Positions 2,092-37,115 of a DNA stretch of 59,715 nt are shown here, in pieces. The notes below the pieces were generated by a model. It saw only the letters and a program-made list of their open reading frames with translations. It made no database searches and was not told the origin of the DNA. Source of the DNA: a virus; IMG/VR virus record IMGVR_UViG_3300042507_007513, positions 1-59,715 of that record; one strand, given 5' to 3'. The position numbers were made by a program, and so were the translations under genes. The stretch's first letter is position 1. Each line of letters starts with the position of its first letter.

Positions 2092-4602
2092 ATGCCAAGA
2101 ATAAAGACAAAAAACTCCACAACATCTACGTCAACGCCAACAAGCGGATCGTTGCTGCAGGGCGAGCTTGCGGTAAACATAACAGACAAAAGACTTTTTG
2201 TTGGTAATGCATCGGGAAATCCAGTAGAAATCACAAACCAGGGCGTTACCGCTGTATACGGCTCAACAAGCGGTATTTACGTTACGCAAGCAACAGGATC
2301 AACAACAATAGGACTTGATCCAGACATTTACGTAAGCGGATCGATGCACGTTAGTGGCGTATTAACTGATACTACTTCAGCATTAAACATTTTTGCATCA
2401 GAAGATCCAACAACTTCGTGGAGTCATTGGATAAACGCAAAAACATACAATGGTCTTTATTCAGAAGTTGCTGGAACAGACGGCGGTGACTTGGTCTTTA
2501 GAACAGACTCAAACACCATAAGAATTGAGCCTACTGGATCTCTTGCTGTTACTCTTGATACACTTGCTGCTTCGACAGGATACCTTTACCCAACGCCAAA
2601 TGATGTTCGTATCGGAAACAGCAACACAACCACAACCTTCCCTGGAAACGTAACAATCACAAAGGCGCTAACTGTAGACCACATTACAGGTGACATGGAC
2701 GGCGCTGTTTTAAAAGCATGCAAAAACACAGACTCAGTAACGCTACGTAAAGGTGATCCAGTTTTCATATCAGGAAACGTTGGGGCTAGTGATGTTATTG
2801 AAATTCAGCTTGCTCGTGCTGATACCACTGCAAAAATGCCAGCGGTTGGGTTGTGTGCCCAGTCTTTGGCCGTAAACGCAACTGGTTATATCGTAATAGT
2901 TGGTGTTTTAAGTGATACTGACACATCGGCGTTTACTGTTGGTAATAGCGTTTACGTTAATTCAACTGGATGGGTAACAAATGTCAGACCGACTGGCGCA
3001 AGCATTTTGGTGCAAAACATTGGTCGTGTTGGAAGAGTTAACTCAAACAATGGGCAAATCATAGTACTTGGTCCAGGCAGAACAAACGATGTTCCAAACA
3101 ACATTTTGGCGTCTGGAACACTCACTCTAGGAACCCCTGACATAATTACGCCTCTTGCTGGTACTGCAAGCGTTTTTGATACTAACATAGTAACAGCAAA
3201 CGCATTTACGTCAGCGAGTAACGTTAACATTGCAACAGGAAATATTTTTGATCCGCAGCAGAAAATAATTAAAATAGGAACAACTGCTGGGGGTGATGGA
3301 ACTGTTACAATAAGCCTGGGTTCTTCCTCTGCTGGAACAACCACAATAAACAGTCCATCAACTGTTTTGGGGGGAGACATTGCTGTAAACGGTGGTGATA
3401 TAACAACGTCAAACTCTTCAGCTACAATTTTTAATACAACAGCTGCCCGTGTTAATATTGGCGGTGGCGCTAGTGGTGTACAGATTGGGCATCCAACTGG
3501 AACCGTTGTGATGGGCAACATTGCAGCGAACAGCGGAACCATTTCAACAACCGCTACAAGTGCAAACATATTTAACACTACAGCTGCCCGTGTTAATATT
3601 GGCGGTGGTGCAAGCGGTGTGCAGATCGGTCATCCGACTGGCGTCGTCACAGTTGGTGATATCGCGGTTAATGATGGAACTATAACAACAACCGCGGCAT
3701 CTGTAACTGTATTTAATACAACAGCCACTACACTTTCAATGGGCGGGGCCGCTACAACAATGACTATTGGTGGCGCCACATCAGCAAGCACTTTAAACAT
3801 TGGTACTGGCGCAAACGGAGCAGGTGTAACAAAAACAATAAACATAGGAACGGGGGCCTCTGTTGGTTCAGCAACAACAAACATAACGATAGGTCCAAGC
3901 ACAGCCTCTACAGGCACAATAACAATAAACGGAAGAACAAACGTAATAGGGTCAACCGCAACAGGTATAACAATCGGTGGCCTAACACTAGACACTACTG
4001 TTGGCAGCAGCACTGGATTCATAGACATTGGAACGAATTCGATTGTTGGCGGTCATAAGATAATAAATATTGGTACAAACGGATCTTTCGGTAACAGCCA
4101 AATAACAATCGGAAACACTCTAGGTGGGCTTGTCCTTAAAGGATCTTCGGCAAGCGGAGTGATACTTGATTCCGGCCCACTAAGAGCAATAGGTCAGTCA
4201 ATACTAACAAGCTCTGATGTTAGAGCGACTGGTGCGGCTATTGGCTGGTCAAGCGTTCAGTCAACTGGGCATATGCTAGCTGCAAGCGGCTACAGAATAA
4301 CATCAAACGCAATAAACGCACAAACAGCAACTGGCTACACACTACAGGCATCGGACAATGGAAGAGTAATAACTTTTAACAGCGCAGCAAGCCACACGCT
4401 GCGAATACCAACTGGCCTTGACGTTGGTTTCAATGCGACAATAATTCAGCTAGGAACTGGACAGGTAACCTGCACTGGTCTTTCTGGCGCAACATTAAAC
4501 TGCTACGCGTCTGGAAACAAGATAAGCGGTCAGTTTGGTGCTGCGAGTATAATTTGCTACACTACAGACACATACAATTTGGCAGGAACACTCACAGTAT
4601 GA
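2092..4602 (+). CDS. tail fibre / receptor-binding structural protein
   Basis: An 836-residue protein dominated by Gly, Thr, Ser, Asn and Ala in short beta-strand-like repeats (for example NIGGGASGVQIGHPTG, twice), the composition of trimeric beta-helical phage fibres. The N-terminal LLQGELAVNITDKRLFVGN resembles the conserved fibre segment found in many aquatic phages, probably an attachment region. Residues ~220-330 (DPVFISGNVG, MPAVGLCAQSL) look like a small globular domain repeated in phage fibres. The C-terminal ~100 residues are a different, likely tip-proximal domain. The gene overlaps the LRR gene by 4 nt (ATGA). Confidence 0.85.
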   Translation: MPRIKTKNSTTSTSTPTSGSLLQGELAVNITDKRLFVGNASGNPVEITNQGVTAVYGSTSGIYVTQATGSTTIGLDPDIYVSGSMHVSGVLTDTTSALNIFASEDPTTSWSHWINAKTYNGLYSEVAGTDGGDLVFRTDSNTIRIEPTGSLAVTLDTLAASTGYLYPTPNDVRIGNSNTTTTFPGNVTITKALTVDHITGDMDGAVLKACKNTDSVTLRKGDPVFISGNVGASDVIEIQLARADTTAKMPAVGLCAQSLAVNATGYIVIVGVLSDTDTSAFTVGNSVYVNSTGWVTNVRPTGASILVQNIGRVGRVNSNNGQIIVLGPGRTNDVPNNILASGTLTLGTPDIITPLAGTASVFDTNIVTANAFTSASNVNIATGNIFDPQQKIIKIGTTAGGDGTVTISLGSSSAGTTTINSPSTVLGGDIAVNGGDITTSNSSATIFNTTAARVNIGGGASGVQIGHPTGTVVMGNIAANSGTISTTATSANIFNTTAARVNIGGGASGVQIGHPTGVVTVGDIAVNDGTITTTAASVTVFNTTATTLSMGGAATTMTIGGATSASTLNIGTGANGAGVTKTINIGTGASVGSATTNITIGPSTASTGTITINGRTNVIGSTATGITIGGLTLDTTVGSSTGFIDIGTNSIVGGHKIINIGTNGSFGNSQITIGNTLGGLVLKGSSASGVILDSGPLRAIGQSILTSSDVRATGAAIGWSSVQSTGHMLAASGYRITSNAINAQTATGYTLQASDNGRVITFNSAASHTLRIPTGLDVGFNATIIQLGTGQVTCTGLSGATLNCYASGNKISGQFGAASIICYTTDTYNLAGTLTV
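3431..3641 (+). repeat. intragenic direct repeat in the fibre gene
   Basis: Two ~70-bp copies, starting near 3431 and 3572, encode the same fibre repeat (TAARVNIGGGASGVQIGHPTG type). They are highly similar in DNA, with mainly third-base differences, so the second copy is a fairly recent internal duplication. Confidence 0.7.
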
Positions 4603-5504
4603 TTGTTTTACCAAGCGCTAAATATTTTTCTTCGGTACCTAGTGTTGCTGAAATAGCTAGGTTTACAACACCGAAATCGAGCGGAACGTTTGGTGCTCTT
4701 AATACCGCCTACGTTTATACGACAACTGGATACGTCGCTGTAAAATGGTGGGACGGCGTTACTACGGTTTACGGAAATGGCATTCCAATCAGTATTCAGT
4801 ATATTACAAAATTGGTTGCAGCACCATACAATACATCCGCCGAAAAAGAATTTTCTATGTATGCCTGCGATTCAACAGGAAAAATAATTGGCCACATAAC
4901 CACAATCGGGTTTGGAAACTACACGAGATCGCAGATAAACTTTGTAGATATTTACTCTTTATCACAGCTAGGTATTTTTGCGTGCGATTCTGGGTCTGGG
5001 CTTACTTCTTATAAACACAACGGAAGAATAGGAACTCTTGCCTTAACTAATACTGGATTAACGAGTCTTGATCTATCTAATGGCTTTAGATTGATTGAAT
5101 TGAACCTAGCATATAGCACTGTCCTGGCTTCAATTACAGGAGTGTCTAGTTTACGAAATATTTTAAATTTTGATTGTAGAATAACATCTGTTACATCTCT
5201 TGAGTTTTCAGCTGCTAATAATCCGTATCTCTATAATATAAATGTTAGTAACTGCGCCTCTTTAACGTCTTTACGGGCTGTTGGTTGTATTTTATACTCT
5301 GACTATTATTCAACATACAGTCTTTTCAAGGGTGGCGCGAGCCTACAATCCTGTGGACTAGGAACAGCAGCAATAGAGCAATTTTTTACAGATCTTGGAA
5401 ACGGAAATGGATATATAAATATTACTTGTGCGTCGGGGGTTCCAGTAAACGATTCAATAGCAACAAACAAGGGGTATACGGTTATTGGCAACACACCGTG
5501 CTAA
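4599..5504 (+). CDS. leucine-rich-repeat protein, likely distal fibre or adhesin
   Basis: A 301-residue protein with start ATG at 4599 overlapping the fibre stop (ATGA). The N-terminal half has a beta-rich domain (YVAVKWWDGVTTVYG). Residues ~140-250 carry irregular leucine-rich repeats (LTNTGLTSLDLSNG, LIELNLAYST, LYNINVSNCASLTSL), as in BspA/internalin-like surface proteins. Position right after the fibre suggests a tip or accessory receptor-binding protein. It could instead be a chaperone, but the LRR pattern argues for binding. No signal peptide is visible. Confidence 0.65.
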   Translation: MIVLPSAKYFSSVPSVAEIARFTTPKSSGTFGALNTAYVYTTTGYVAVKWWDGVTTVYGNGIPISIQYITKLVAAPYNTSAEKEFSMYACDSTGKIIGHITTIGFGNYTRSQINFVDIYSLSQLGIFACDSGSGLTSYKHNGRIGTLALTNTGLTSLDLSNGFRLIELNLAYSTVLASITGVSSLRNILNFDCRITSVTSLEFSAANNPYLYNINVSNCASLTSLRAVGCILYSDYYSTYSLFKGGASLQSCGLGTAAIEQFFTDLGNGNGYINITCASGVPVNDSIATNKGYTVIGNTPC

Positions 5505-5506
5505 AA

Positions 5507-6163
5507 ATGGGATATTTTGTAACACCAAACTACAGTCTAGCCTTTATTCCTAAATCTGGATGCTCAACACTGTCTAGGTGCGTGATAAAGGCATTTCAGC
5601 CAGAAGAAGAAGCGCTTATAACAGGCGCAGCGTACCCAAACGGAAAAACGGCTGATAACTCAATGTGGCAGAGCTTTGTAAAAAGAGAGAAGTATCCATC
5701 GAAGCCAATACTTGCTATGATACGAGACCCAATTGAAAGATTTAGATCAGCAGTCGCTCAATTTAAGCTTTCGGATGTTGATTACGTTATTGAGGCGCTT
5801 GTAAATGAATCTACAATTGTCTCTAACACAAGACGCCATCGTGAAATAAATATTTCAAAGAATCAACACTTCATGCCACAGATTCTGTGGGTTGATGTAA
5901 ACACAAAGCTTTACAAGTTCCCAGAACACATAAACGAGGCCTCTGCAGAGATAGGTTTTATGCTACCATTGCCTCAAATAAACGCAGCGTCTTATCCAAA
6001 GCCAACTTTTACGGCCGAGCAGACAGCTGTTTTGGAGGAGTATTACGCAGAGGATATTGCGCTATTTGAGTCAATTGTTTCTCCTGGAATAATAACAGGG
6101 GTGATTTCGGCAAATCCAGTGAGTCTAGTTCCTCCAGTTATTCCTGATGATGAGGAGCCTTAA
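5507..6163 (+). CDS. sulfotransferase-family protein
   Basis: A 218-residue protein with start ATG at 5507, two bases after the LRR stop. It has both PAPS-binding signatures of the cytosolic/Golgi sulfotransferase fold: the 5'-phosphosulfate loop PKSGCST (residues 15-21, in LAFIPKSGCSTLSR) and the 3'-phosphate motif IRDPIERFRSA (about 72-82). The family moves sulfate from PAPS to sugars or proteins. Placed after the fibre genes, it may sulfate a fibre, a capsid glycan or a host surface glycan. The C-terminus is a Pro/Val-rich acidic tail (VPPVIPDDEEP). Activity is inferred from motifs only. Confidence 0.75.
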   Translation: MGYFVTPNYSLAFIPKSGCSTLSRCVIKAFQPEEEALITGAAYPNGKTADNSMWQSFVKREKYPSKPILAMIRDPIERFRSAVAQFKLSDVDYVIEALVNESTIVSNTRRHREINISKNQHFMPQILWVDVNTKLYKFPEHINEASAEIGFMLPLPQINAASYPKPTFTAEQTAVLEEYYAEDIALFESIVSPGIITGVISANPVSLVPPVIPDDEEP

Positions 6164-6182: not shown

Positions 6183-6464
6183 ATGGGCTTAGCCAATAAT
6201 AAGATCAAGAGTGCACTGAGAAAATTGCAAATAGCAATGGGGACAGAAATAACCTCGTACAAAGGTATAAAGGTTGGCGATCGCGTAAAAGACGTAAATC
6301 AGCAGTGCATGCATTACGGCAGCGTAGGGGTCGTTACTATGATTGAGGCCCTGCCAGAAAACAGCGGATACCTTATTCATTATACCGTAGAAAATGACGG
6401 ACCTTCGTATGGCCCAGGAACAGTGCTCAAAAAGACAGAAGATCAATTGGAAAAACTATCATGA
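6183..6464 (+). CDS. small SH3/KOW-like protein
   Basis: A 93-residue protein. After a basic N-terminal segment (NNKIKSALRKLQIAMG) it has a compact beta-barrel-like sequence (IKVGDRVKDVN, YGSVGVVTMIEALP, YLIHYTVENDG) resembling KOW/SH3-like folds. The next gene encodes a similar domain (AGDIVSCGN, WGEVLEINSGVASIKI). Its function is unknown. It is the first gene of a three-gene unit with 4-nt overlaps. Confidence 0.65.
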   Translation: MGLANNKIKSALRKLQIAMGTEITSYKGIKVGDRVKDVNQQCMHYGSVGVVTMIEALPENSGYLIHYTVENDGPSYGPGTVLKKTEDQLEKLS

Positions 6465-6694
6465 ACGAAGAAGAAAACGATTACGATTACACACCACAGC
6501 AGCCAGAAGAGGCTAGCATTTCAGCTGGCGACATAGTTAGCTGCGGAAACAAGGACTCGGTTAACTTTGGTGTTTGGGGCGAAGTTTTAGAAATTAATTC
6601 TGGTGTTGCGTCAATTAAAATAATGAATCCAGAGTTTCCGCACAATACCGGCTGGAGCGTAACGGAGCGCGTCGAGGGTCTGGAGAAGCTATGA
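6461..6694 (+). CDS. small acidic SH3-like protein
   Basis: A 77-residue protein with an acidic N-terminus (MNEEENDYDY) followed by a beta-rich domain similar in pattern to the preceding product. It overlaps both neighbours by 4 nt, so it is translationally coupled. No specific function can be given. Confidence 0.6.
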   Translation: MNEEENDYDYTPQQPEEASISAGDIVSCGNKDSVNFGVWGEVLEINSGVASIKIMNPEFPHNTGWSVTERVEGLEKL

Positions 6695-7080
6695 CCGACT
6701 CGGAACTTGACGTAATTTTTGCTTCAGAGAAAGCCCAGGCAGTTGAGTATCAGGGTAAAAAAGTAACCCTAAATCAACCAAGACGAATAGGTAAGGGCGA
6801 TCCTGGCTACGGGAAGAAGAAATTCTACGTTTACGTCAAGAACGATCGTGGAAATGTTGTCCGCGTAATGTTCGGTGATCCAAACATGGAAATACGTCGT
6901 GACGACCCAAAAAGAAGAAAAAATTACAGATCACGTCACGGGTGCAGTAATCCTGGTCCAAAATGGAAGGCTAACTACTGGTCTTGTAAGATGTGGGAAG
7001 CTAAGAAGTCTGTTACTGACTACACAAGCAGCTCAGTAATTTCTTCTTTTATTAAAGCAATAAACGAAGCTTCTATTTAG
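6691..7080 (+). CDS. conserved phage protein with RRKNYRSRHGC motif
   Basis: A 129-residue protein. Residues ~60-107 contain VMFGDPNMEIRRDDPKRRKN followed by a RSRHGC...NPGPKWKANYWSC motif, a conserved signature I recall from many tailed phages, where the domain is often attached to or encoded near head-assembly protease/scaffold proteins. The two Cys and the His suggest a small metal-bound fold. A head-assembly role is inference. It ends at the convergent membrane-protein gene, overlapping it by 4 nt. Confidence 0.6.
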   Translation: MTDSELDVIFASEKAQAVEYQGKKVTLNQPRRIGKGDPGYGKKKFYVYVKNDRGNVVRVMFGDPNMEIRRDDPKRRKNYRSRHGCSNPGPKWKANYWSCKMWEAKKSVTDYTSSSVISSFIKAINEASI

Positions 7081-7883
7081 GCTTCCATCCCGCCACCAGC
7101 ATCTTGCGGGGGATCTTGATTTAGCCAAGCCAATAGGGCCATAAGTATAACTCCAGTAGCTCCAGATGCAATTCCGACTGGAAGTCCAACGCCGCTAAGT
7201 GCAGCAGCGAGACCGAATAACACAGCAGCACTAGCGATTACCCAAAGCACAGTTCTATTTGTTTCTGCCCACGCTGCTATTTCTGCCGCAATACTAGGAC
7301 TTGAGCCGGGCTGATTTAAAGCCCAAAGATAAACGGCTGCTACTGTTGCCGCAGAGGTTCCGTAGTTTACTAGCCATCTCAGGGCGTCGTCCTGATTTTT
7401 TTGCATAATGTATTTGCCAATCAAGTCCTCAATGGTTATAGCCATACCGTCTGAGATTCTTCTAAGCTCGGCAACAAACTCTGGATTTTCCAAAACTCCA
7501 TCTCTGCAGTTTTTAGGTAATGATTGAAATATTTGCCGTAGAGCCTCTGCTGCCGCAGCAAACTCATTTTGGCCAGCCGCTTCATTTAATTTTTTCATCG
7601 CTGCGCTTAAAGACTCAAGAACTCCAGCTAGTCTTCTTTTGCAGAACGGATCAAGGTATTTCCAAAGAGATCTCAATGCCCAAACTAGAATTGGGGCAAG
7701 CGAAAGCCCAGTAATCCATTTTTCCCAGGCTATTTCGGTTTCTTTATCTGGTTTTTCTGCTGGTTCGCTAACAGGACCTATGTCTTCAAATGTTTGGGTC
7801 TGGCCTGGCGCTAAAACAGTATCGCCTCTTTTTGCTGCGACTTTTGCTATGTAATTAAAAAGCTTTACGTCTTTACTGTTCAT
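7077..7883 (-). CDS. membrane-rich putative virion protein
   Basis: A 268-residue protein with two hydrophobic hairpin-like segments in its C-terminal third (about residues 170-190 and 212-258) and a helical charged middle. The N-terminus, MNSKDVKLFNYIAKVAAKRG, resembles the shared N-terminal peptide of other putative virion proteins. It overlaps the upstream 321-residue membrane protein by 4 nt, and the two have similar composition. Possible roles are DNA-ejection pore or tail protein. It is not a recognisable holin. Confidence 0.6.
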   Translation of the reverse strand: MNSKDVKLFNYIAKVAAKRGDTVLAPGQTQTFEDIGPVSEPAEKPDKETEIAWEKWITGLSLAPILVWALRSLWKYLDPFCKRRLAGVLESLSAAMKKLNEAAGQNEFAAAAEALRQIFQSLPKNCRDGVLENPEFVAELRRISDGMAITIEDLIGKYIMQKNQDDALRWLVNYGTSAATVAAVYLWALNQPGSSPSIAAEIAAWAETNRTVLWVIASAAVLFGLAAALSGVGLPVGIASGATGVILMALLAWLNQDPPQDAGGGMEA

Positions 7884-8845
7884 GTGGCTGGCAATACTTG
7901 TCTAGCTATTTGCTGAATTATTTCATTTATTCTCTGAATAGCTGCTGAACTCAAACCAGCGCCAGCAGCAGCAGTAGATATTATCCCGCTAGCTGTGGAG
8001 CTAAGCCAAGCAGCAATACCAGCTAAAGTGCCACCAGCTAAGAAAAACGCACTGAGACCAATAAAAACTGCGGTTAGAACACCAACAATTACAGTATAAC
8101 CAACGCCATACTCTGCTACAAAACCCTGACCAAGCACTTCTGCAGCCAGAACATACGCTGCCTCTCCTGCTCCAGCACCAAATTGATAGACAGCTGCTGC
8201 AATCGCAGCACCAAATGCATACAAATCCCCATTGTTTAAAAACGAATCCCAGAAACGCTTAATTGCTTCAAGTAGCTCTTTTGGTAGATTCGGGAACTTT
8301 GATACAAATGTGGCGTACATTAGATCTTTTATGAATTTGTCTAGGGTTCCATCAGCAATGCATCTTCTTAATTGCCGCTTAACGTCCTCAATATTTGGAT
8401 CAGAAGAATAAAGATTGTCTACTGCCCTATTTAAAGTGTCTCTGTAGTTTGATGATTGCCATTTTTGCCAAAGCTCTCTAGCCTTCATCAAGGTATCACC
8501 AGTAGATGGATCTCTGCTTAAGTAGCTTCCTATGGTGCCACCAAAAACGCCTTGAACCATTCCGTTTAGTAGTTGAAGGAAAGGACCTTTGAGATATCTA
8601 CCGAAAAGCTTAAGGCATTCTTTGTTCTTTCCTAGATATTCTAAAACTTTGTCAACGATCTTATTTAAGCCAGCAAATACTCCCATTCCGCCCAAAATAC
8701 TGATGGCCCACCAGTCTGATTCGCCAAGACCTAAAAAAGAACCACCTTCCTTAGCCTCGCCAGGAACACCAGTGGCTAGTTGAGTCTGGTCCTCTATTGC
8801 TAAAGCAATTTGATTAAGCGTTTTTATAAAACGAAAGTTTTCCAT
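7880..8845 (-). CDS. membrane-rich putative virion or ejection protein
   Basis: A 321-residue protein with an N-terminal amphipathic peptide (MENFRFIKTLNQIALAIEDQ), a helical middle, and a long Ala/Gly-rich hydrophobic C-terminal third with several potential membrane helices (VIVGVLTAVFIGLSAFFLAG). It starts its own unit: GTG-TATTAC lies 5 nt before the ATG with no Shine-Dalgarno site. It is followed with a 4-nt overlap by a related membrane protein. An internal virion protein inserted in the host membrane during DNA entry is plausible, not shown. Confidence 0.6.
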   Translation of the reverse strand: MENFRFIKTLNQIALAIEDQTQLATGVPGEAKEGGSFLGLGESDWWAISILGGMGVFAGLNKIVDKVLEYLGKNKECLKLFGRYLKGPFLQLLNGMVQGVFGGTIGSYLSRDPSTGDTLMKARELWQKWQSSNYRDTLNRAVDNLYSSDPNIEDVKRQLRRCIADGTLDKFIKDLMYATFVSKFPNLPKELLEAIKRFWDSFLNNGDLYAFGAAIAAAVYQFGAGAGEAAYVLAAEVLGQGFVAEYGVGYTVIVGVLTAVFIGLSAFFLAGGTLAGIAAWLSSTASGIISTAAAGAGLSSAAIQRINEIIQQIARQVLPAT

Positions 8846-35538: not shown

Positions 35539-35956
35539 TTGCCTTTTCTAGAACGTGATCTCTGTAGCATTTGTTAAAGTATTGTTTTATTTGTGGTTCG
35601 TCAAATTGTTCAGCGATAGTTACAAACATTCTGTATGGCGACTTAACTATTATTTTTTCAACGCCATCAATAGATCCTAGCGCGTCAGCCATATCGTATG
35701 TTATAGGAAAGTTTACAAAGACGAGAAATTCATTACTTTTTCTAAAAGCGCACTGTGGACTAAAAAGCGGTAGTATATCACCGTTTATTTCAATTGTTTT
35801 TGGAAATGGCGCGTCCTCGTCTGAGGAATCAAATATTCGCTTTGAGTTTGGATCATGGCATTTGCTCATTTCCCCAGTTGGCTCATTGCAAATTGGACAT
35901 AGGCGCTTTTCCCAGCGTATCTCTGGTTTTTTGGTCCAGTCAACTTTTTTCTTCAC
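35513..35956 (-). CDS. conserved zinc-finger phage protein
   Basis: A 147-residue protein with a GTG start. The N-terminal CPIC...C and a later single Cys suggest a metal site. The C-terminal domain (FLVFVNFPITYDMADALGSI, GVEKIIVKSPYRMFVTIAEQ) is a ferredoxin-like fold I associate with small conserved phage proteins of unknown function. It overlaps both neighbours (17 and 26 nt). Confidence 0.55.
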   Translation of the reverse strand: MKKKVDWTKKPEIRWEKRLCPICNEPTGEMSKCHDPNSKRIFDSSDEDAPFPKTIEINGDILPLFSPQCAFRKSNEFLVFVNFPITYDMADALGSIDGVEKIIVKSPYRMFVTIAEQFDEPQIKQYFNKCYRDHVLEKANENENQSS

Positions 35957-37115
35957 TATTTGTCTTTCTTCTGTATAGTCTCATGCCGTATTCATTATCA
36001 GTCGAAGATGGTACAACACCTTCTTTAAAAATAGGAGTATTGTTTTTAAAAGGAGAGTAGTCAACTTGGTGATGCCATCTTCCAAATTTCCAAATAACAT
36101 CAACAACATCTGGGTGTTGCTCTTTTAGAGAGTTAGCAAATGACCATCTGTTATCTCCAGTATTATAGACATTGTCTGTATTTCCGCCGCTCAAAGCCTT
36201 TTTGCCTTTTGATCCAAAGGTCGCGCCCTTTTGCATCATTAGCGAACAAAATACGGCTGTACAGTATCCGTCCTTTAATAGTCTCAAAGAAAGGTCTGTG
36301 TCTTCATTGTATCGCCCTCTCCACTGATACGGCACGTTTGTGTCAAGGAGTATGCAGGAATATACTCTAGTATTAAAAAGCACCGGGGAATGTGCTGTCC
36401 ATCCAACTTTTACAAAGCCAGAGTGGTGTGGCCCAGCCATGGCAATATTTTCATATCTGTCAACAAAATCCTCCATAGCATTAAAAAATCCACCACCACC
36501 AACCTGTATCCTTCTTGTTAGGTTAGCTCTGTAAAAATGATAAATATTATCATCAACAACCCAGTGTCTTTTGTGCTCTCTCTCTTTTGCCCAATTCCAT
36601 ATAAAATTACGAGCTGGTATTGATCCTTTTCCAAGGTCGTGGAAAGGCATTACAACAACCCTATCTTCTCCGAGTGCTTCTTTGTACTGGTCTTCTTCTG
36701 TTTCTTCAACAAAAAACTTATAGTCAACACCAAGTCCGTCTAGCGTTTTTCCAGTTACCTGTAACGCAGCCCTTCCTTTGCTAGGTATGCAAACTGGATA
36801 TCTAGAGTTTGTCTTTGGTCCAAGATATTTGTACTCGCCAGGATCTGGTCCTGTTTGCTGTGGAAACCAAATTGATTTTTGTTTTGATCCACCAGAAAGG
36901 CCAAGCTTTTTGTAAAAAGCGCGCCTGTCTTCTGCTGTCAAAAAACTGACCGTTATCTGAGAATACGGCTTAATATTTTCATTATTAAATGCTGGCATTC
37001 CCCACCAATGGGACTTCCAGTTTGGTCCGACATTAAACAAAGAACCATCATCTTTTTTGATTGATTTTCTAGACAGCTTTTCTAAATCATCACTATTGGC
37101 TTCAAAAAATTCCAT
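35940..37115 (-). CDS. TET-associated glycosyltransferase-type protein
   Basis: A 391-residue protein. After an N-terminal ~100-residue DNA-binding-like part (HWWGMPAFNNENIKPYSQIT), residues ~105-330 match the TAGT family of phage glycosyltransferases: YPVCIPSKGRA, RHWVVDDNIYHFYR with the DD metal site, and YNEDTDLSLRLL. Known relatives work in phages whose TET-like oxygenases make hydroxymethylcytosine that is then glycosylated. No TET gene is in the window, so the substrate is inferred. It lies next to thyX. Confidence 0.7.
   Translation of the reverse strand: MEFFEANSDDLEKLSRKSIKKDDGSLFNVGPNWKSHWWGMPAFNNENIKPYSQITVSFLTAEDRRAFYKKLGLSGGSKQKSIWFPQQTGPDPGEYKYLGPKTNSRYPVCIPSKGRAALQVTGKTLDGLGVDYKFFVEETEEDQYKEALGEDRVVVMPFHDLGKGSIPARNFIWNWAKEREHKRHWVVDDNIYHFYRANLTRRIQVGGGGFFNAMEDFVDRYENIAMAGPHHSGFVKVGWTAHSPVLFNTRVYSCILLDTNVPYQWRGRYNEDTDLSLRLLKDGYCTAVFCSLMMQKGATFGSKGKKALSGGNTDNVYNTGDNRWSFANSLKEQHPDVVDVIWKFGRWHHQVDYSPFKNNTPIFKEGVVPSSTDNEYGMRLYRRKTNSEEKS

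Follow-up and report, generated by a model that had tools for sequence, protein, structure and literature searches.

The virus record IMGVR_UViG_3300042507_007513, analysed here over its whole length of 59,715 bases (the window), carries a gene which, as judged from sequence comparison and structure models, very probably encodes an active PAPS sulfotransferase and almost certainly forms a dedicated cassette with the tail adhesin gene located directly in front of it. The enzyme family itself is known. New is its recurrent coupling to one class of tail adhesins, which is strongly supported by the data presented below. Since the window carries genes for rIIA, RNR, DnaB, a UvsX-like protein and PolIII-alpha, it represents a fragment of a tailed phage. 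Near-identical or related records range from 82.9 to 125.5 kb.

The cassette is preceded by the gene of a tail-fibre-like protein (Table 1). The Mtd_N-like N-terminus of this protein was detected with an E-value of 4.9e-4, which is under the cut-off, and the protein matches phrog_21978, a PHROG of unknown function (E=4e-13). Its counterpart in the related locus L005 matches PHROGs of virion structural and tail spike proteins. A first, sequence-only reading had placed the sulfotransferase directly behind the fibre and LRR genes. This is indeed the arrangement found, with all three genes on the plus strand and the sulfotransferase ATG separated from the LRR stop by only 2 bp. Both PAPS-binding motifs named in that reading, PKSGCST and RDPIERFRS, are present in the open reading frame (residues 15-21 and 73-81). 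The three small genes further downstream probably lie outside the cassette. They are followed by two adjoining membrane-rich ORFs of 268 and 321 aa on the minus strand (7077-8845), which are almost without family match and differ strongly from one relative to another (about 30% in L021). At 35940-37115, also on the minus strand, we detected a glycosyltransferase-like ORF matching phrog_842 (beta-glucosyl-HMC-alpha-glucosyltransferase, E=4e-39), for which DNA or surface modification is possible.

Table 1. Features of the fibre/adhesin/sulfotransferase locus in the window and glycosyltransferase genes at related loci
Feature	Position	Strand	Basis or remark
Tail-fibre-like protein, 836 aa, upstream gene of the cassette	2092..4602	+	Mtd_N-like N-terminus, phrog_21978
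LRR adhesin, 301 aa	4599..5504	+	4-bp overlap with fibre stop; AlphaFold and Foldseek
Tyr-rich stretch YSDYYSTY, adhesin residues 233-240	5295..5318	+	last repeat before C-terminal cap
PAPS-sulfotransferase-like protein, 218 aa, ATG start, TAA stop	5507..6163	+	Pfam, AlphaFold, Foldseek, conservation
Predicted 5'-phosphosulfate-binding loop IPKSGCST, residues 14-21, Lys16 invariant	5546..5569	+	alignment of 27 members
Predicted 3'-phosphate-binding motif RDPIERFRS, residues 73-81, Arg73 invariant	5723..5749	+	alignment of 27 members
His121, candidate catalytic base	5867..5869	+	conserved in 26/27; assigned by analogy only
Recombination junction within the sulfotransferase gene, as observed in the related locus L020	5832..5952	+	identity breakpoint
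Three small downstream genes	6183-6464, 6461-6694, 6691-7080	+	conserved only in close relatives
PF03407 glycosyltransferases behind cap adhesins	L079:4593-5216, L085:619-1254, L116:2271-2906, L142:4131-4784, L071:4249-4893		

The identity of the enzyme is borne out by family matches, predicted fold and conservation of the PAPS site. On its own, the window protein scores 20.3 bits with PF03567 (Sulfotransfer_2; E=6.6e-4), slightly short of the cut-off of 22. All of the nine relatives found first match this family (best E=1.8e-6), and eight of them also match phrog_3347 (Galactose-3-O-sulfotransferase, category moron; best E-value 9.2e-5). Among the relatives, L034 (27.1 bits), L029 (25.7 bits) and L025 (22.1 bits) reach or exceed the PF03567 cut-off. 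An AlphaFold model of the protein (pLDDT 86.6, pTM 0.82) was compared with a viral structure library by Foldseek, and the top matches were mainly annotated as "sulfotransferase family" (P-SSM7, E=3.6e-6; ACG-2014f, E=4.1e-6), with gp5.1 of phage SIO1 matched at 2.3e-5. In the PDB the top eleven matches were all sulfotransferases, though weak ones (E>=7.8e-3, TM about 0.3); overall the scores are modest, with TM values of 0.3-0.55. Structure prediction, proposed as a check of the sequence-only reading, thus points to a sulfotransferase-like fold and not to a P-loop kinase. No match to the protein was obtained by tblastn in 50,697 records of cultured phages, and neither its sequence nor its alignment retrieved anything beyond chance matches from the PDB; one weak plasmid match came from Sulfitobacter (E=0.03). 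A weak match to NCBIfam DarG was dismissed as chance. Three loci retrieved by a DNA pattern search for IPKSGCST (L009, L010, L012) turned out to be unrelated reading frames and were dropped.

For the conservation analysis 27 sulfotransferases clustered at 85% were aligned (median pairwise identity 39%, minimum 21%). No variation occurs at Lys16, Arg73, Pro75, Arg78, Phe79, Gln125, Asn159, Tyr180 and Asp183; all 27 proteins have Ser or Thr at position 20, and position 81 is Ser in 26 and Thr in one. Loss of the PAPS pocket, named beforehand as a finding that could overturn the assignment, therefore did not occur in these non-redundant members. Among close relatives with usable dS we obtained dN/dS values of 0.08-0.19, indicating purifying selection. 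Frameshifts in L033 (G004) were not accepted as pseudogenization, because the neighbouring RNR gene is broken in the same way.

The adhesin of the window was modelled as an LRR solenoid (pLDDT 88.2, pTM 0.85), and its top Foldseek matches in the PDB were LRR proteins including internalins (E-values of 6e-3 and up). Pfam gave no LRR match for this protein itself; the related adhesin of L047 matches PF12799 (LRR_4) with E=1.6e-22. Around a common C-terminal cap, the adhesins are built either of LRRs or of LamG-type lectin domains (L057, PF13385, E=1.2e-32). The adhesin ORFs of L050, L052, L057 and L063 are of the latter LamG/concanavalin type with the same cap, as shown for L057. In some LamG-type adhesins the Tyr-rich loop is very marked, e.g. 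TYYYYTYYNRYRWTW in L050.

Searching by the sulfotransferase sequence, we found a homologue of the window LRR adhesin directly upstream in essentially all loci but L034. Beyond the adhesin, the neighbours vary between loci and include small genes, RNR, dUTPase and other fibres. A reverse search using only the adhesin alignment returned 24 loci, of which 21 carry a sulfotransferase, and a search led by the sulfotransferase-less adhesin of L051 returned 80 loci, of which 26 do; since the first adhesin query was built on sulfotransferase-linked loci, these frequencies are biased, whereas the spacing is not. Cap-bearing adhesins with and without a sulfotransferase were found at 30 and 41 non-redundant loci, respectively. 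At 29 of these 30 loci with a sulfotransferase, the two genes are spaced by -4 to +24 bp. Only in L034 does the gap amount to 1,099 bp, the sulfotransferase lacking an adjacent cap adhesin. Together with the exchange observed in L020 (see below), the tight spacing and the reverse search place the link between sulfotransferase and fibre or adhesin on a much stronger footing than in the sequence-only reading. As a separate observation, the RNR gene of L025 (3192-4590) is apparently split by an HNH-type endonuclease ORF, with an intein-like junction between the two RNR pieces.

The backbone genes of L020 are similar to those of the window (gp1379 96%, gp7077 98%, PolIII 96%). Its adhesin, however, shows 92% identity to that of L021 and 45% to that of the window. 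Residues 1-118 of the L020 sulfotransferase are likewise 92% identical to L021, before the protein becomes window-like at residues 119-150 (94% vs 84%). To judge by these identities, the adhesin and the 5' half of the sulfotransferase gene have been exchanged as a unit in L020, so that the PAPS loop travels with the adhesin together with the variable middle, probably the acceptor side of the enzyme. A comparable pattern appears between the window and L003, with 64% identity in the adhesin, 69% in sulfotransferase residues 1-118, 94-97% in the rest and 100% in the next gene. Furthermore, L005 contains a broken second copy of the 3' part of the sulfotransferase gene directly behind the intact one (G012:16767-17024), as expected if the 3' end is a recombination junction.

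Some of the sulfotransferases are fused to further domains. L035, a contig from a Pirellulales MAG, encodes a fusion of the enzyme with DUF4376 (E=2.3e-4, slightly below cut-off), and in L047 and L031 the enzyme carries an extra C-terminal domain (phrog_6034 in L047, E=8e-19), homologues of which adjoin tail-fibre or other tail genes in the cultured phages phiM9, tooticki and Acica. Instead of the sulfotransferase, a PF03407 (Nucleotid_trans) glycosyltransferase lies 5-19 bp downstream of the cap adhesins L079, L085, L116 and L142, with scores over the cut-off. L071, likewise a sulfotransferase-less cap adhesin, shows a weaker match. At these loci a glycosyltransferase takes the place of the absent sulfotransferase, and the site downstream of the adhesin thus seems to serve as a slot for modifying enzymes. 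L122 has a cap adhesin followed at 331 bp by a gene (604-1881) that combines a GT2 glycosyltransferase with a methyltransferase domain.

From sequences and models taken together we propose a mechanism which we rate as about evenly balanced: a PAPS-dependent sulfotransferase of a two-gene adhesin cassette, expressed late, would sulfate hydroxyl groups of the adhesin using PAPS of the host. In this cassette, a tail adhesin of LRR or LamG type with the common cap would precede a sulfotransferase of its own. The two would probably be co-translated late in infection, given the gene overlap, the shared strand and the fibre neighbourhood. PAPS would be supplied by the host, since six phage records, possibly fragments, revealed no gene for an APS kinase or a PAPS reductase. 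The adhesin may receive sulfate while the virion is being assembled or earlier, the variable loop preceding the cap being the most plausible site, and its receptor-binding surface may thereby change in charge and specificity. Sulfotransferase activity, the adhesin as substrate and Tyr or another hydroxyl as acceptor are what we infer here; that an adhesin or fibre protein is the substrate could equally well prove right or wrong.

In the 40 residues before the cap, Tyr makes up 9.1% in sulfotransferase-linked adhesins and 2.4% in unlinked ones (Mann-Whitney 2e-8), a contrast which ignores phylogeny and is confounded by shared ancestry, as linked and unlinked adhesins belong largely to different subfamilies. 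Compared in pairs with the rest of the same adhesin, the loop differs with p=6e-5 in linked and p=0.12 in unlinked adhesins. Six of the 30 linked adhesins possess a single Tyr in the loop. In the window adhesin the YSDYYSTY stretch was modelled as a hairpin with lower confidence. The enrichment of the loop marks Tyr as a possible acceptor. PF03567 relatives of known function act mostly on carbohydrates, which disfavours a Tyr acceptor, and we consider tyrosine a doubtful candidate. A dedicated module in which a cognate enzyme sulfates tyrosines in a hypervariable Tyr-rich adhesin loop appears somewhat less probable still.

The main rival to adhesin sulfation, tentative in itself yet to be taken seriously, is that the target is a glycan on the host surface (O-antigen, capsule or exopolysaccharide), which the enzyme would sulfate during infection, thereby masking the receptor of its own adhesin. 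Progeny would be spared sticking to debris, superinfection by rivals would be blocked, and the pairing would reflect matched glycan specificity. Both PF03567 and the phrog_3347 label indicate carbohydrate acceptors, the glycosyltransferases in the slot of other adhesins could act likewise, and linkage and co-exchange of the adhesin with the 5' half of the enzyme are also expected if the enzyme changed the host receptor recognised by the adhesin. However, inspection of the sulfotransferase sequence by eye revealed no evident signal peptide or membrane anchor, which would limit such sulfation to cytoplasmic precursors. The location behind the fibre implies late expression, and domains occurring beside tail-fibre genes are fused to the enzyme, both of which fit a host-glycan substrate less well. 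The sequence-only reading had put forward sulfation of a fibre or capsid glycan, with a change of the host surface as its alternative. In the first case the enzyme would sulfate a sugar which another enzyme puts on the fibre or adhesin. The preference of the family for carbohydrate and the glycosyltransferase-like gene elsewhere in the window would agree with this, but among the sulfotransferase loci examined no glycosyltransferase gene was noticed adjoining the cassette, and in related adhesins the glycosyltransferase substitutes for the sulfotransferase and does not accompany it. We therefore regard a virion glycan as improbable.

Alternatively, a protein of sulfotransferase fold might have taken on a role without catalysis, as a fibre chaperone or as part of the virion. 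The gene occupies a slot typical of small tail-fibre accessory proteins, and L035, L031 and L047 show fusions to such accessory domains. In a pure chaperone, however, one would not expect Lys and Arg of the PAPS site and S/T81 to be kept throughout 27 divergent members, which makes this explanation quite unlikely. Phage sulfotransferases have been regarded as auxiliary metabolic genes whose function is unclear (PMC10580990; PMC10829341), so the enzyme could also be an unlinked metabolic or a small-molecule- or DNA-modifying sulfotransferase standing beside the fibre by chance. This is contradicted by the 29 of 30 tight adhesin linkages in changing surroundings and by the 21 of 24 loci of the reverse search, and is hardly credible. 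Sulfation of DNA bases in particular found no support in the gene neighbourhood.

Like the carbohydrate sulfotransferases of PF03567 (HNK-1/chondroitin type), the window protein shows the 5' PKxGxS/T loop, the RxPxxRFxS motif, HFxxQ and YxxD near the C-terminus and a match to the profile. It differs from them in its shorter length (218 aa), the lack of an evident signal anchor and the sub-threshold score. PSSM7_018 of Prochlorococcus phage P-SSM7 ("Galactose-3-O-sulfotransferase") was matched by our family profile (E=3e-8) and by Foldseek. It is encoded directly behind the gp5 baseplate hub, but it has no LRR/LamG cap adhesin directly upstream and shares 17% identity in the Foldseek alignment. 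The sulfotransferase of S-T4 is located three genes away from the tail fibres, and that of Sf-CH5 adjoins a putative tail protein on the opposite strand. In Roseobacter phage SIO1, the Foldseek match gp5.1 exhibits PKT and RNP motifs by eye and is encoded beside two tail-fibre genes; unlike the window protein it was not found with the family profile or PF03567, and it lacks a cap adhesin. A precedent for protein-tyrosine sulfation with cytoplasmic PAPS is the bacterial tyrosine sulfotransferase RaxST of Xanthomonas, which belongs to another sulfotransferase subfamily. In phage O-antigen conversion (Gtr), a phage enzyme alters the recognition surface, namely the host O-antigen, from separate operons. 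The enzyme described here would likewise alter a recognition surface, but is fixed behind the adhesin gene.

Sulfotransferases of phages have been described before, their function being called unclear (PMC10580990), and are counted among the auxiliary metabolic genes (PMC12285232; PMC10829341). A literature search for sulfotransferases together with receptor-binding proteins or tail fibres, with most subscription journals and preprints outside its coverage, did not find the adhesin-sulfotransferase pair, and one for tyrosine sulfation together with bacteriophages found nothing relevant. The tight, recurrent coupling to one adhesin class suggests a concrete function for these enzymes, namely the modification of a receptor-binding protein or of its receptor. 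The parallel glycosyltransferase cassettes hint at a general rule, in which an adhesin is accompanied by its own modifying enzyme. If the adhesin is sulfated, host-range prediction from sequence would miss a layer, and recombinant adhesins produced without the enzyme may fail to bind. Were the loop tyrosines the acceptors, phages would possess a sulfated virion protein, and bacterial viruses a counterpart of the sulfotyrosine present in receptors and antibody loops.
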